Below are positions 21,994-34,617 of a DNA stretch of 35,827 bases, piece by piece; within the stretch, counting starts at the first letter, position 1; each line of letters starts with the position of its first letter. The stretch is taken from NCBI GenBank assembly GCA_001784475.1, contig MFRE01000021.1:1-35827 (forward strand), read 5' to 3'. The notes under the pieces were generated by a model. The model made no database searches and was not told the origin of the DNA. It saw nothing but the letters and a program-made list of their open reading frames with translations. A program made the position numbers and the translations under genes. Source of the DNA: Candidatus Magasanikbacteria bacterium RIFOXYD2_FULL_41_14 (GTDB lineage: Bacteria; Patescibacteriota; Patescibacteriia; Magasanikbacterales; GWA2-37-8).

Positions 21994-22063
21994 TGTCATT
22001 GCGAGCAAAGCGTGGCAATCTAACGTTGGGATTGCCATGTCGCTACGGCTCCTCGCAATGACA
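21994..22063. repeat. palindromic repeat family B, intergenic copy
   Basis: Outer arms TGTCATTGCGAG and CTCGCAATGACA are perfectly inverse. The core GCAATCTAACGTTGGGATTG is shared with the copy inside uvrB (33802-33887). It sits between PAP2 and the nucleotidyltransferase. Confidence 0.85.
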
Positions 22064-22883: not shown

Positions 22884-23735
22884 ATGTCTATTCGTAATAT
22901 AACAGTTATCTCAATTATAACCGTCCTTGTCTTGCCAACAAGTTTTATTTTTTATTGGAAATATACGCACCGATACATTCCATCACCACCGCGACCGGTC
23001 GTAGATGTTATTGTTAAACCGGGTTGGAATTTGCGCCAAATTGCGGAAGATTGGAAGGCGAAAGGGTTGATAAAATCTGAGCAGGAATTTTTTTATTATT
23101 TGGGTACGCCACCGTCTACCAGTGCGCCCGGCATCGCCCCTGTTGTGGATTGGCAGTTTTTGGTTACCAGCACTCTAAAAGAATTATTGGTTGGTAAGCC
23201 TGGTGGAGTTTCGTATGAGGGGTATTTATTGCCAGAGACACACACAGTTTATGTTGATGGTGGGTTGGAAGCAATTGCATATAAATTTTTTCATCAATTA
23301 GATAAAAGTATTACGCCGGAAATGCGCGCGGAAATTATTCGGCAGGGGAAAAGTTTTTTTGAAATTTTGACAATGGCGTCAATTGTAGAAAAAGAAGCGT
23401 CGGGCGCGGATATGGCGATGGTGGCGGATATATTTTGGCGCCGATATGAACGCAATTGGGCGTTGCAATCTTGCGCGACTGTAAATTATATTACTGGGAA
23501 AAGTACACCAGCCGTATCAGCGGTTGATCGAGCGATTGATTCGCCGTATAATACCTATAAATATCCAGGATTACCGCCGGGGCCAATTTCTAATCCAAGC
23601 TTGAAAGCAATAATCGCGACAATATATCCGACTAAAAATGACAATTGGTATTTTATGAGTGACACGGACGGTAAAACGCATTTTGCGAAAACTTTGGATG
23701 AACATAATGTTAATGTGGCGAAGTATTTAAGATAA
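22884..23735 (+). CDS. mltG: endolytic murein transglycosylase MltG
   Basis: Membrane-anchored lytic transglycosylase that cleaves nascent peptidoglycan strands. One N-terminal helix (about 7-25), a LysM-like segment VIVKPGWNLRQIAEDWKAKG, then the YceG domain: YEGYLLPETHTV, the catalytic glutamate region MASIVEKEAS (about 164-173), DSPYNTYKYPGLPPGPISNP and the closing TDGKTHFAKTLDEHN. At 283 residues it is slightly short of the usual ~340 but all motifs are present. Position with PAP2 and a nucleotidyltransferase suggests a cell-wall cluster. Confidence 0.95.
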   Translation: MSIRNITVISIITVLVLPTSFIFYWKYTHRYIPSPPRPVVDVIVKPGWNLRQIAEDWKAKGLIKSEQEFFYYLGTPPSTSAPGIAPVVDWQFLVTSTLKELLVGKPGGVSYEGYLLPETHTVYVDGGLEAIAYKFFHQLDKSITPEMRAEIIRQGKSFFEILTMASIVEKEASGADMAMVADIFWRRYERNWALQSCATVNYITGKSTPAVSAVDRAIDSPYNTYKYPGLPPGPISNPSLKAIIATIYPTKNDNWYFMSDTDGKTHFAKTLDEHNVNVAKYLR

Positions 23736-23778
23736 AGCAAAATAGAGATAATTAAATGTAACGGCAACAATTGTCTCT

Positions 23779-23813
23779 CCCCTCCTTTTCAAGGAGGGGA
23801 TTAAGGGGTGGTT
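23779..23813. repeat. family D inverted repeat, left end of DUF559 element
   Basis: CCCCTCCTTTTCAAGGAGGG(G) hairpin plus GGGGTGGTT. Its reverse complement matches the right-hand copy (24193-24227) at 30 of 35 positions, all differences lying in a five-base block. It ends 2 nt before the DUF559 ATG. Confidence 0.9.
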
Positions 23814-23815
23814 AT

Positions 23816-24193
23816 ATGGCAAAAGTATTTAACAAAAAAGAACAGATACCGATCCGAAAGAGATTGAGAAATAATATTACAAAAAGTGAAATGATATTAT
23901 GGAAATATTTGAAAGGTAGTCAAATGAACGGTTGGAAGTTTAGGAGACAGCAGGGTATTGGAAATTATATAGTAGATTTTTATTGTCCAGACTTAAAAAT
24001 TGTGGTTGAAGTGGATGGTTTAACACATTCAGAGGAAGTAGTATTTGAGAAAGATGAGGTGAGACAAGAATATTTAGAAAATTTAGGATTGAAAGTTGTG
24101 CGGTATAACAGTCAAGATATATTTTATAAAATAAATGATGTTTTAGAAGGATTGTATAATATTTGTTTGGAGTTGTCTAAAGCGAACGTTTGA
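23816..24193 (+). CDS. DUF559 endonuclease-domain protein (Vsr/PDDEXK-like)
   Basis: A 125-residue protein of the DUF559 family. Typical opening IPIRKRLRNNITKSEMILWKYLK is followed by GWKFRRQQGIGNYIVDFYC, with catalytic-type residues in NYIVDFYCPDLKIVVEVDG (D-x(n)-E-x-D) and a helix plus strand ending LGLKVVRYNSQDI. The family is related to very-short-patch repair and other PD-(D/E)XK nucleases; activity and target are unknown. The ATG at 23816 is chosen because upstream codons lie inside the repeat. The stop TGA shares its last base with the right-hand repeat. The gene therefore fills the space between two inverted repeats, suggesting a self-contained mobile unit. Confidence 0.88.
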   Translation: MAKVFNKKEQIPIRKRLRNNITKSEMILWKYLKGSQMNGWKFRRQQGIGNYIVDFYCPDLKIVVEVDGLTHSEEVVFEKDEVRQEYLENLGLKVVRYNSQDIFYKINDVLEGLYNICLELSKANV

Positions 24194-24227
24194 ACCACCC
24201 CCTCGCCCCCTCCTTGAAAAGGAGGGG
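24193..24227. repeat. family D inverted repeat, right end of DUF559 element
   Basis: Begins AACCACCCCCTCGCCCCC and ends with the hairpin CCCCTCCTTGAAAAGGAGGG(G). It overlaps the last base of the DUF559 stop codon and lies 16 bp before the queA ATG. Confidence 0.9.
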
Positions 24228-24243
24228 CAAAGCCAGTGATAAT

Positions 24244-25479
24244 ATGTTAACTTCAGATTTTGATTACAATTTACCCAAAGAATTAATTGCCCAGTATCCG
24301 GCCGATCTGCGCGATTCTTCGCGTTTAATGGTAGTGGATAGAGTGAATACCAAAATTGTTCATGAGAGGAGTTTTAGCGAGATTGTAAAATATCTACGGG
24401 CGGGGGATTTAGTGGTGTGGAATAATACTAAAGTTTTTAAAGCGCGGTTGCGCGGAACGGTGATGTTGGATGAGGAAGTGGCGGGTGTGCCGAACCACCC
24501 CCTCGCCCCCTCCTTGAAAAGGAGGGGAAAATTTGAGTGTACCGATGTAATTTTTAACGCGCCCAAAGTGGAAATTTTTTTAACGCGACCAATGGAAAAT
24601 CCGGGCGTATGGCGCGCGCTCGCTAAGCCCGGGCGCAAGTTGCGTTTGGGAATGAAAGTCGTTTTTGCCGAAGATTTTTCAGCGGAAGTGATGTTTAAAA
24701 ATGATGATGGCACGGTGGATTTACAATTTAATGATTCGGACGCGATTGTGCGCGCCAAGGCGAATAAGTATGGTGAGGTGCCGACGCCGCCGTATATAAA
24801 AAATCAAAATGTAAATATCAAAAATCAAAATTTAGTGAGTGATTACCAGACAGTGTATGCTCAACATGAGGGTTCCGTTGCGGCGCCGACAGCTGGATTT
24901 CACTTTACTGAAGAATTGATTGAGCGATTGAAAAAACAGGGTGTGGAGTTTGCGGAAGTTACTTTGCATGTTGGGTTAGGGACATTTTTACCAGTTAAAA
25001 CCGAAAAAGTTGAAGACCACAAAATGCACGCCGAGTGGGTAGAAATTACTGATAAAAATGCTGGGTTAATTAACGCGGCCAAGGCCAGTGGCCGACGCGT
25101 GGTAGCGGTTGGCACAACAACGGTGCGGACGTTGGAAGGGGTTAGTCGTCTTTGTCATTCTGATCCGCCATTTGGCGGAGAAGAATCCCTTAAATTAAAC
25201 AATAGCACCGATGCAAGCGTTAAGGGATCCTTCGCTTCACTCAGGATGACAGACGTTGTGAAGCCGTATGATGGCGATATTAATATTTTTATTACCCCCG
25301 GTTTTAAATTTAAGGTTGTAGACGCGCTTATCACTAATTTTCATTTGCCCGAGTCCACGCTTTTGATGTTGGTTTCTGCCTTTGTGGGCGATAGGGAATT
25401 TGTTCTGGACTGTTACGAAGAAGCGATTAAAGCCAAGTATCGTTTTTATAGTTTTGGTGATGCCATGCTGATTGTTTAG
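24244..25479 (+). CDS. queA: tRNA preQ1(34) S-adenosylmethionine ribosyltransferase-isomerase, with repeat insertions
   Basis: Makes epoxyqueuosine in the wobble base of GUN tRNAs. Family blocks: FDYNLPKELIAQYPADLRDSSR at the start, VVWNNTKVFKARLRG, TPPYIK, YQTVYAQHEGSVAAPTAGFH, TLHVGLGTFLPV, HAEWVEI, AVGTTTVRTLEG, ITPGFKFKVVDALITNFHLP and LLMLVSAFVG. At 411 residues it is about 60 longer than the usual ~345. The excess is explained by an in-frame 35-bp family D repeat (residues ~84-95) and a 99-bp palindrome (residues ~304-336); a TCAAAA-type stretch (~185-198) replaces a variable loop. All conserved motifs remain in frame. Start at 24244; earlier codons translate the repeat. Confidence 0.94.
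   Translation: MLTSDFDYNLPKELIAQYPADLRDSSRLMVVDRVNTKIVHERSFSEIVKYLRAGDLVVWNNTKVFKARLRGTVMLDEEVAGVPNHPLAPSLKRRGKFECTDVIFNAPKVEIFLTRPMENPGVWRALAKPGRKLRLGMKVVFAEDFSAEVMFKNDDGTVDLQFNDSDAIVRAKANKYGEVPTPPYIKNQNVNIKNQNLVSDYQTVYAQHEGSVAAPTAGFHFTEELIERLKKQGVEFAEVTLHVGLGTFLPVKTEKVEDHKMHAEWVEITDKNAGLINAAKASGRRVVAVGTTTVRTLEGVSRLCHSDPPFGGEESLKLNNSTDASVKGSFASLRMTDVVKPYDGDINIFITPGFKFKVVDALITNFHLPESTLLMLVSAFVGDREFVLDCYEEAIKAKYRFYSFGDAMLIV
24493..24527. repeat. family D repeat inside queA
   Basis: Identical over 35 bp to 24193-24227, same orientation. Translated as NHPLAPSLKRRG within a variable region of QueA between ARLRG and KVEIFLTRP. Confidence 0.9.
24797..24838. repeat. TCAAAA-type repeat text inside queA
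   Basis: AAAATCAAAATGTAAATATC followed by AAAAATCAAAATTT encodes KNQNVNIKNQNL, just after the conserved PPYI. It resembles the intergenic repeat at 15655-15780. Confidence 0.5.
25153..25251. repeat. palindromic repeat family C inside queA (99 bp)
   Basis: Ends TGTCATTCTGA and TCAGGATGACA are inverse-complementary with one mismatch; inner arms GAAGAATCCCTTAA and TTAAGGGATCCTTC likewise. Ninety-nine bases, exactly 33 codons, inserted after TTVRTLEG and before the conserved VVKPYDGDINIFI segment. Confidence 0.85.
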
Positions 25480-32523: not shown

Positions 32524-34617
32524 AAAATGAAGCCGGCGGGCGACCAACCGCAAGCGATTAAGAAATTAACCGCTGGTTTGGAAAAAAATTTTAATCGCCA
32601 GACATTGCTTGGAGTTACTGGTTCGGGTAAAACTTTTACGATTGCCAATGTGATTGACGAAGTGCAGTTACCAACTTTGGTAATTGCGCATAACAAAACT
32701 CTGGCGGCGCAGTTGTGTAATGAGTTTCGCGAATTTTTTCCAAATAATGCCGTGGAATATTTTGTTTCGTACTATGACTATTATCAGCCGGAAGCATATA
32801 TTCCGGGGTCTGACACTTATATTGAAAAAGAATCACAGATAAATGAAGAAATTGATCGTCTGCGCCACGCTTGCACGCAGGCACTTTTGTCTCGTCGCGA
32901 TGTAATTGTGGTGGCATCGGTGTCGGCAATTTACAGTTTAGGTTCGCCCGAACAATATTTAAATGAGGCCGTGATCTTTAAAATTGGAGAAAAGATTGAT
33001 CGCACCAGCGTTACGCGCAAATTAGTGGAACTGCAGTTTGAACGCACGAGTGGCGATTTAACCCGTGGGACTTTTCGTTTGCGTGGTGGGGTTTTGGAGA
33101 TTGTGCCAGTACATGAAGAAAGAATTTATCGTTTAGAAATTGATAGCCACATTAAAATCATTGAAATTCTGGATGTAGTTACGCGTAAGGTTATTAAAGA
33201 GGTATCAGAAGTTTGGCTTTATCCGGCGAAGCATTATTTGGCTTCGGTCGAAGACACTGAAAATGCTTTTGCTCAAATTAGAAGTGATTTGGACGCGCAA
33301 CTAAAATATTTTGAAAAGGCCGGAAAAGTGTTGGAATATGAACGCCTTAAACGCCGGACTCGTTATGATTTAGAAATGATAAAAAATATCGGTTACTGTA
33401 GTGGTATTGAAAATTATTCTCGTTATTTTGACGGACGCGCCGAAGGGTCGGCACCCTTTACGCTTTTGGACTATTTTGCCGCTTGTGATAAAGATTTTTT
33501 AACAGTTGTGGATGAATCGCATGTAACAATTCCCCAAATCGGCGGAATGTATAACGGCGACCGGGCGCGCAAAAATACTTTAATTGAGCATGGGTTTAGG
33601 TTGCCGAGCGCGCGCGACAATCGTCCGCTTACTTATCCGGAGTTTGAAAAACGCGTTAATAAAATGATTTTTGTGTCGGCCACACCGAGCGCGTTTGAAA
33701 TTAAAGAGAGTCAACAGGTGGTTGAACAAATCGTGCGCCCGACGGGGTTAATTGACCCGGAGGTGATTATTAGACCGGTGACAGGCGGTCGTCCGTTAGC
33801 GGTCATTGCGACCCGACAGTTGGCGGGGAAGCAATCTAACGTTGGGATTGCCGCGTCGTCCGCCAATGGGCGGACTCCTCGCAATGATAAAAATAATCTA
33901 TCGCAAATTGAAGATTTAATTATTCGTATTGATGAGCGTGTAAAAATTAATGAACGGGTTTTGGTTACTACGCTCACCAAGAAAATGGCGGAAGATTTGA
34001 ATGATTATTTGTTAAAAAAAGGAGTTAAGGTAAAATATTTACATAGCGAAATTGACACTTTGGAGCGCATTGAAATTATTACTGATTTACGGCGTGGTAA
34101 AATTGACGTGATTGTGGGTGTAAATTTATTGCGCGAGGGGTTGGACTTGCCCGAGGTATCGTTTGTGGCGATTCTAGACGCAGATAAGGAAGGGTTTTTG
34201 CGTAGTGAAACCAGTTTAATTCAAACAATCGGCCGAGCGGCGCGTAATATTAATGGTCGGGTGGTTTTATATGCCGACAACATAACTGGTTCCATCAAAC
34301 GCGCGCTTAGTGAAACCGACCGTCGTCGCACTGTACAGTTGGCCTATAATAAAAAACACAACATTACGCCAAAAACAATTGAAAAAAACATTCGGGATAT
34401 TTTGAGTGAGTTTGGTTTGACGCGTGTGGCCGGCAAGGGGCGTGGACATAGTCGTGCCAAGAAAATTTTGGAGTTGGACTTAAAAGGGGACAGCAGGCCG
34501 TTGCCGGAAATTATTAAAGAAAAAGAAATGGAAATGCGCAAGGCGGCCAAAGAATTGGAATTTGAACTCGCGGCCATACTGCGCGACGAAATAGGGGTGT
34601 TGAAGAAGCGTCAATAA
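32503..34617 (+). CDS. uvrB: excinuclease ABC subunit B, with in-frame palindromic insertion
   Basis: DNA helicase-like subunit that receives damage from UvrA and recruits UvrC. Motifs: PAGDQPQAIKKL, Walker A GVTGSGKT (about 37-44), the beta-hairpin YYDYYQPEAYIPGSDTYIEK, DESHVTIPQI, VSATPSAFE, VLVTTLTKKMAEDLNDYL, VNLLREGLDLPEVSFVAILD and QTIGRAARN. The C-terminal UVR helix EMRKAAKELEFELAAILRDE closes it. At 704 residues it is about 40 longer than the usual ~660. The excess lies at about residues 428-466, where RPTGLIDPEV is separated from QIEDLIIRIDERVK by a translated family B palindrome. All helicase motifs stay in frame. Confidence 0.97.
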   Translation: MKFKLKSKMKPAGDQPQAIKKLTAGLEKNFNRQTLLGVTGSGKTFTIANVIDEVQLPTLVIAHNKTLAAQLCNEFREFFPNNAVEYFVSYYDYYQPEAYIPGSDTYIEKESQINEEIDRLRHACTQALLSRRDVIVVASVSAIYSLGSPEQYLNEAVIFKIGEKIDRTSVTRKLVELQFERTSGDLTRGTFRLRGGVLEIVPVHEERIYRLEIDSHIKIIEILDVVTRKVIKEVSEVWLYPAKHYLASVEDTENAFAQIRSDLDAQLKYFEKAGKVLEYERLKRRTRYDLEMIKNIGYCSGIENYSRYFDGRAEGSAPFTLLDYFAACDKDFLTVVDESHVTIPQIGGMYNGDRARKNTLIEHGFRLPSARDNRPLTYPEFEKRVNKMIFVSATPSAFEIKESQQVVEQIVRPTGLIDPEVIIRPVTGGRPLAVIATRQLAGKQSNVGIAASSANGRTPRNDKNNLSQIEDLIIRIDERVKINERVLVTTLTKKMAEDLNDYLLKKGVKVKYLHSEIDTLERIEIITDLRRGKIDVIVGVNLLREGLDLPEVSFVAILDADKEGFLRSETSLIQTIGRAARNINGRVVLYADNITGSIKRALSETDRRRTVQLAYNKKHNITPKTIEKNIRDILSEFGLTRVAGKGRGHSRAKKILELDLKGDSRPLPEIIKEKEMEMRKAAKELEFELAAILRDEIGVLKKRQ
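33802..33887. repeat. palindromic repeat family B inside uvrB
   Basis: Ends GTCATTGCGA and TCGCAATGAT; core GCAATCTAACGTTGGGATTG is identical to the intergenic copy at 21994-22063. A second nested arm pair, GTTGGCGGG-type and CCGCCAATGGGCGG, is present only here. Confidence 0.85.

Follow-up and report, generated by a model that had tools for sequence, protein, structure and literature searches.

What is a 125-codon nuclease gene, closely framed by two inverted hairpin repeats, doing between mltG and queA of Candidatus Magasanikbacteria bacterium RIFOXYD2_FULL_41_14? The initial annotation of the stretch of DNA analysed here (35,827 nucleotides, hereafter the window) had proposed a minimal mobile element whose DUF559 nuclease recognises or spreads the repeats, like a RAYT/REP pair or a homing endonuclease. 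The comparative analysis described below suggests that the locus is probably one copy of a minimal mobile element that resembles REPtrons and REPINs, with a Vsr-like nuclease in the place of the HUH transposase.

Structure of the window locus

The nuclease gene lies between mltG and queA (Table 1). Its ATG, at 23816, begins 2 nt past the left palindromic unit, and the last base of its TGA codon (24191–24193) is the first base of the right unit. The framing of the gene by 35-bp inverted hairpin units, with the 2-nt gap and the shared stop base, is thus as first annotated, and the third copy in queA likewise matches the right end at every position. The left and right units are indeed inverse copies, but they differ at 4 of 35 positions, so that their identity is 31/35 instead of the 30/35 originally given. 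Each unit comprises a perfect 9-bp CT/GA hairpin with a 3-nt loop (about −16 kcal/mol) and a G-rich tail. Judging from its sequence, the AGGAGG/GGGG stretch of the left unit could act as a ribosome-binding site. No run of T follows the right hairpin. As an inverted repeat, the pair of units scored 21, as compared to 12–16 for the best pair per window in 20 simulated windows of 35.8 kb.

Table 1. Features of the mltG–queA region, in positions of the window
Feature	Position	Strand	Description and evidence
mltG/YceG, left neighbour	22884..23735	+	PF02618, E=1.4e-54
mltG–queA intergenic segment, 511 nt	23736..24246	.	Element plus ~43 nt of left and ~19 nt of right flank; alignment with G001 (locus L070) and family comparison
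Left palindromic unit	23779..23813	+	Hairpin 23779–23799, then spacer and G-rich tail toward the gene
DUF559 (Vsr-like PD-(D/E)XK) nuclease gene, 125 aa, ATG/TGA	23816..24193	+	PF04480, E=2.4e-30; AlphaFold2 model
Right palindromic unit, inverted copy of the left	24193..24227	-	Hairpin 24207–24227, tail toward the gene
queA, right neighbour, host of the solo unit	24247..25479	+	PF02547, E=3.1e-121
Solo (gene-less) unit in queA, in frame	24493..24527	-	35/35 identical to the right unit; also in the congener G001

The window also contains repeats of other kinds. A second, unlike, repeat-like in-frame insertion lies within queA, at window positions 25147–25254, and encodes LCHSDPPFGGEESLK...SFASLRMTD; the congener queA (L070, about 1405–1500) is without it at that place and has another such insertion elsewhere in the same gene. 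Another dispersed repeat (GCAATCTAACGTTGGGATTGCC...) has two copies (93%), at 22015–22042 and 33831–33858, one upstream of a nucleotidyltransferase gene and one apparently in frame within uvrB. Between 3230 and 3678, two 40-nt direct repeats (AACCACCCTGCTTCGCTGCGC...), about 370 nt apart, non-coding and with inverted GC-rich partners, represent another repeat family.

The nuclease belongs to the Vsr-like fold

The window nuclease scored 105 bits against DUF559 (PF04480), far above the curated Pfam cut-off of 20.6, and is therefore a member of this family; the Pfam scan returned only DUF559 and MTES_1575. Among solved structures, the best matches to its AlphaFold2 model (pLDDT 92) are the Neisseria gonorrhoeae protein NGO0050 (3hrl) and I-Bth0305I, a homing endonuclease represented by its catalytic domain (3r3p), the latter with a TM-score of 0.64 on the query and 0.80 on the target. 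A profile match to I-Bth0305I (E ~1e-5) agrees with the model, in which the Vsr-like/EDxHD catalytic fold of that enzyme is present. Weaker matches were obtained to 5hmC-specific restriction enzymes and E. coli Vsr. The residues invariant among 36 relatives include E25, D54, E65, D67, H71 and D80, which are plausibly among those forming a putative PD-(D/E)XK/Vsr active site.

Three other assignments of the protein were considered and set aside. Membership of a defence system was dropped, as the nuclease domain gives only weak partial matches to large defence proteins and restriction enzymes. Rfam matched no group I intron in six loci, one of which (L007) covers the window locus. An intein was also rejected, the nuclease fusion with tsaC described below comprising only the YrdC and nuclease domains in Pfam.

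The insertion between mltG and queA is derived

G001, the sole congener compared with the window genome (Patescibacteria-type), has no DUF559 gene, and its gap between mltG and queA is 3 nt, as against 511 nt in the window. In the other family members with a placeable mltG, mltG and queA are close neighbours and DUF559 is absent. Given that all of these genomes share the close arrangement without the nuclease, the insertion in the window genome is the derived state, and the mobile element bounded by repeats that had been proposed thereby gains its empty site in a close relative. The occupied form of the mltG–queA locus was encountered once only among the genomes compared.

The solo unit in queA has a different history. 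The window genome and G001 share it, whereas the other family members compared lack it; it is therefore older than the insertion of the gene, or at least than the split from G001, and is not recent. Neither the empty G001 site nor the clean tsaC sites described below carry a unit, indicating that no unit is required at the target. In the comparisons with G001 at pheT and mltG–queA, which provide few clean pairs, no target-site duplication was evident.

DUF559 genes are flanked by palindromic units in many phyla

The flanks of 70 DUF559 loci from the class were read in gene orientation, and 106 other ORFs from the same loci served as controls; a flank was counted when it carried a CT/GA-rich hairpin of at least 7 bp within 150 nt of the gene. 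Of the 69 loci scored, 81% had such a hairpin upstream, 80% had one downstream and 65% had one on both sides, whereas the control ORFs gave 4%, 8.5% and 0, respectively. A one-genome-per-species scan yielded a second set, the best 80 loci, drawn from Bacteroidota, Nitrospirota, Nitrospinota, Chloroflexota, Cyanobacteria, Calditrichota, Ignavibacteria, Desulfobacterota, Patescibacteria and others. In the 77 of these that were scored, the hairpin lay upstream in 73%, downstream in 70%, on both sides in 55% and on either side in 88%. Similar hairpins are present at the Neisseria, Azospirillum and Synechocystis matches in the plasmid collection, and the isolate genomes of Spirosoma and Pontibacter display a like architecture. 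The architecture of the window locus is thus general, in that most DUF559 genes examined in many phyla are flanked by units on both sides.

The units share a common build. The consensus of 222 units consists of a CT arm, a loop, a GA arm, approximately T-T-A, 7–8 mostly-G positions and T-T. The arms are diverse in sequence (47 distinct 7-nt ends) while their palindromy is kept, and the tail points toward the gene on 153 sides and away from it on 28. The two flanks of a gene are also related to each other: as inverted repeats they attained a mean score of 15.8, as compared to 8.65 for flanks of different genes, and they share the inner arm at 38 of 86 loci, as against 8.5% in random pairings. 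The similarity of the nucleases correlates weakly with that of their units (Mantel r=0.15, 8 of 999 permutations as high), a correlation to which shared ancestry may contribute.

The units are dispersed and co-occur with DUF559

In the window genome (1.1 Mb), the hairpin pattern has 11 occurrences when up to 1 mismatch is allowed and 18 when up to 2 are, and the control pattern has none. PF04480 is present in 43 of 95 related genomes; it was found in 15 of the 18 genomes in which the hairpin occurs twice or more and in 28 of the 77 others (p=0.0004, uncorrected for kinship). Across the phylum, 19 of 380 genomes contain the full unit, and 16 of these carry DUF559 (one by a weak match), whereas DUF559 overall is present in 101 of 380 (27%; p=1e-7, uncorrected for kinship); a control pattern of the full unit read backwards gave no matches. 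The anticipated co-occurrence of repeats and DUF559 thus holds, and the repeats are rarer in genomes lacking the nuclease, not equally frequent there, the contrary case that the initial annotation had named. Twelve DUF559 genomes beyond the relatives of the window genome contained 1–85 hairpins of this one arm type, with 85 in the Pontibacter genome G461 and 35 in Leptolyngbya; controls in three genomes gave 1, 4 and 1.

That CT/GA hairpins are simply common and lie near the gene by accident of composition is an explanation we consider barely credible. Although the repeats are short and the data derive from MAGs, all of the controls (the genome pattern, the paired flanks, the phylum scan, the 106 ORFs and the simulated windows) contradict it, as do the isolate genomes with the shared architecture.

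The nuclease could instead be a passenger that merely persists between REP-like repeats moved by a Y1/HUH transposase or by host recombination. Some genomes do keep units without the nuclease (G001, with 10 copies, and G057, G081, G180, G233 and G396), and Y1 transposases occur in 36 of the 95 relatives; the one in the window genome is divergent. However, the association of Y1 genes with units is not significant (p=0.08–0.22, as compared to p=0.0002–0.006 for DUF559), and Y1 genes are missing from G010 and G019, where copies are most numerous within the family. Moreover, at nine Y1 loci a CT/GA hairpin was located upstream in none and downstream in one, and the pairing of DUF559 with units spans many phyla. 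The passenger role is thus quite improbable, and a Y1/RAYT transposase as the driver of the units is unsupported. In G057, fragments of Y1 transposases gave 27 matches, many of them at the ends of contigs, which suggests a recent IS200-like expansion that broke the assembly.

Units within genes and the tsaC site

Single units are common in the window genome, and doublets were seen in L001, L002 and the G023 tsaC. In-frame units or doublets occur in the window genome in genes for a putative leucyl-tRNA synthetase, a RarA-like ATPase, QueA, MiaA, MnmA, PheT and a ComEC-like protein, names that were read from translations and, for QueA only, tested with Pfam. Most of the reading frames of the units are open, and some are not. 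The pheT-like gene contains a single unit as a clean 45-nt in-frame insertion and the ComEC-like gene contains a doublet, both absent from G001.

The complete element also enters genes. In the window genome, a second DUF559 gene lies in frame within tsaC (YrdC), as does one gene in each of G006, G010 and G019; the units are translated there as linkers. A family-wide search found the corresponding TsaC loop in 24 genomes: 18 loops are clean, with 5–14 residues, four contain a complete nuclease, one (G005) holds an internal-deletion remnant between units and one (G023) only a gene-less unit doublet. The congener G001 is among those with a clean tsaC. Mapped onto the host-protein tree, these states need six changes, and well-supported branches force at least three gains or losses; in the nuclease tree, the four tsaC nucleases group together, with a low support of 58. 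The scattered states on the host tree, combined with the grouping of the nucleases, therefore indicate homing-like behaviour, and the repeated patchy occupation of one site that characterises homing endonucleases is found at the tsaC loop. In G010 and G019, the tsaC nuclease gene lies between two direct copies of the doublet, so that recombination between them would leave a doublet such as that of G023. About 1.3 kb from the G023 tsaC with its gene-less loop there is also a DUF559 gene of a different lineage (L042; G023:C11:248920-251169).

These features raise the alternative that DUF559 is only a free-standing Vsr-type homing nuclease for conserved gene sites, with the units as its terminal sequences or landing aids, which scatter by deletion of the gene and are not mobilised by the nuclease when solo. 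The match of fold and profile to I-Bth0305I, the presence of related nucleases at one tsaC site in a patchy set of genomes and the resemblance of the G005 and G023 states to gene loss all speak in its favour. Solo units, however, greatly exceed the genes, as the Pontibacter and Leptolyngbya counts demonstrate, and many of the sites that they occupy show no trace of a gene; furthermore, single units, and not just pairs, are polymorphic between congeners, as in pheT. We therefore regard a homing gene alone as unlikely.

Stable branches of the family

DUF559 genes that keep the same chromosomal neighbours without repeats, which were expected to speak against mobility, turned up only as side branches, and otherwise not. 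One is E. coli ycjD, present in 3,366 of 5,426 genomes (~62%) and located between sapF and fabI in the genomes inspected, with decayed repeats. It looks like a stable branch, perhaps a domesticated one, and VsrA of Caulobacter may be similar. As an intraspecies test of an empty site, ycjD was rejected because the site is not clean: in the three strains without ycjD that were examined, sapF is followed by a different gene block, with an MFS transporter and an outer-membrane efflux gene. This position varies within E. coli (L303–L306), and the stretch around ycjD seems to contain a dispersed repeat (a median of 4 places per genome; one 41-bp match).

VsrA, which carries the same DUF559 domain as the window nuclease, causes an SOS response in a methyltransferase mutant and is a candidate mismatch-repair enzyme, repeats and mobility not being considered in the accessible part of that source (PMC12907096). 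By extension, DUF559 might perform Vsr-like mismatch repair for the host in general, with the hairpins as terminators or expression signals, and the stable placement of ycjD accords with this. On the other hand, the units are dispersed away from the gene and in frame within other genes, the DUF559 genes are patchy and unstable in position, the right hairpin in the window lacks the T run, and an unsystematic reading of the loci revealed no conserved linked methyltransferase. A general host-repair function is accordingly very improbable.

Proposed mechanism and relation to known systems

The preferred reading, a REPtron-like or REPIN-like element with a Vsr-like nuclease, thus builds on observations of several kinds: the build of the unit, its frequent pairing with DUF559 in different phyla, sites that are empty in relatives, forms that lack the gene or carry an internal deletion, in-frame insertions and the patchy occupation of tsaC. 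Cleavage of the repeats by the nuclease, in turn, is a prediction. The nuclease would recognise the unit, perhaps as an extruded hairpin with its tail, or a site like the loop in tsaC, and would nick or cut at or near the recognised unit or homing site. Host recombination and repair might then copy the element, or a unit, into the break through homology of unit length, while recombination between flanking units would delete the gene and leave a solo unit or a doublet. If the single units and back-to-back doublets are, as we propose, dispersed gene-less relatives of the element, then it would work like a REPtron or REPIN with a different enzyme. The analogy with RAYT/REP pairs and homing endonucleases originally drawn therefore stands as a statement of how the element works; as to the enzyme itself it does not, since the nuclease is not a RAYT.

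REPtrons are REP, BIME or REPIN repeats with RAYT transposases (PMC2817692, PMC3116915, PMC3733652). In common with them and with REPINs, the present system has short palindromic units bearing a sequence tag at one end, an enzyme gene flanked by units, an excess of gene-less copies, inverted doublets and some units within genes. The REPtron enzyme, however, is an HUH/Y1 transposase and not a Vsr-like PD-(D/E)XK nuclease; no Y1 gene lies between the present repeats, nor are Y1 genes significantly associated with DUF559-type units. The tag differs as well, being GTAG at the foot of the palindrome in REPtrons and a G-rich run about 3 nt past the hairpin here.

Vsr-like homing endonucleases such as I-Bth0305I (3r3p) have the same fold and likewise occupy one site of an essential gene in a patchy manner, but in the present case no intron or intein was found and the gene is framed by palindromic units. 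Rickettsia palindromic elements are likewise in-frame palindromic insertions in conserved genes; they are about 150 bp and bound to Rickettsia, and the available part of the source names no enzyme for them (PMC10969869), whereas the DUF559 units are ~35–45 nt, occur in multiple phyla and have a candidate enzyme. ShiLan-type homing insertions with a hidden HNH gene also bear a nuclease and are read through in frame without splicing domains (PMC11855218), but the element described here has another nuclease, lying in the host reading frame, and hairpin ends.

Each of the kinds involved was known before: the DUF559 domain, REPtrons, REPINs, Vsr-type homing endonucleases and palindromic elements inserted in frame. 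No description of the pairing of DUF559 with palindromic units was found in the open-licence literature, and its novelty is provisional because the search covered open-licence papers only.

Biological significance

A broader reading, to which we give somewhat less than an even chance, is that DUF559 nucleases constitute a new multi-phylum class of selfish elements, which would spread hairpin repeats and themselves by nuclease-triggered repair, with no transposase chemistry. In such a class, insertion into essential genes would be tolerated because the units are open in most frames and are read as Pro/Gly-rich linkers.

Cultured bacteria with many copies (Pontibacter, Spirosoma and Hymenobacter) make these proposals directly testable. 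If they are true, a large group of unexplained bacterial CT/GA palindromic repeats would be accounted for. A common family of unknown function and a common kind of unexplained repeat would each receive a function and a partner, and a second type of enzyme would be added to the REP-like mobile repeats. It would also mean that a mobile element can live in frame within essential genes such as tsaC.
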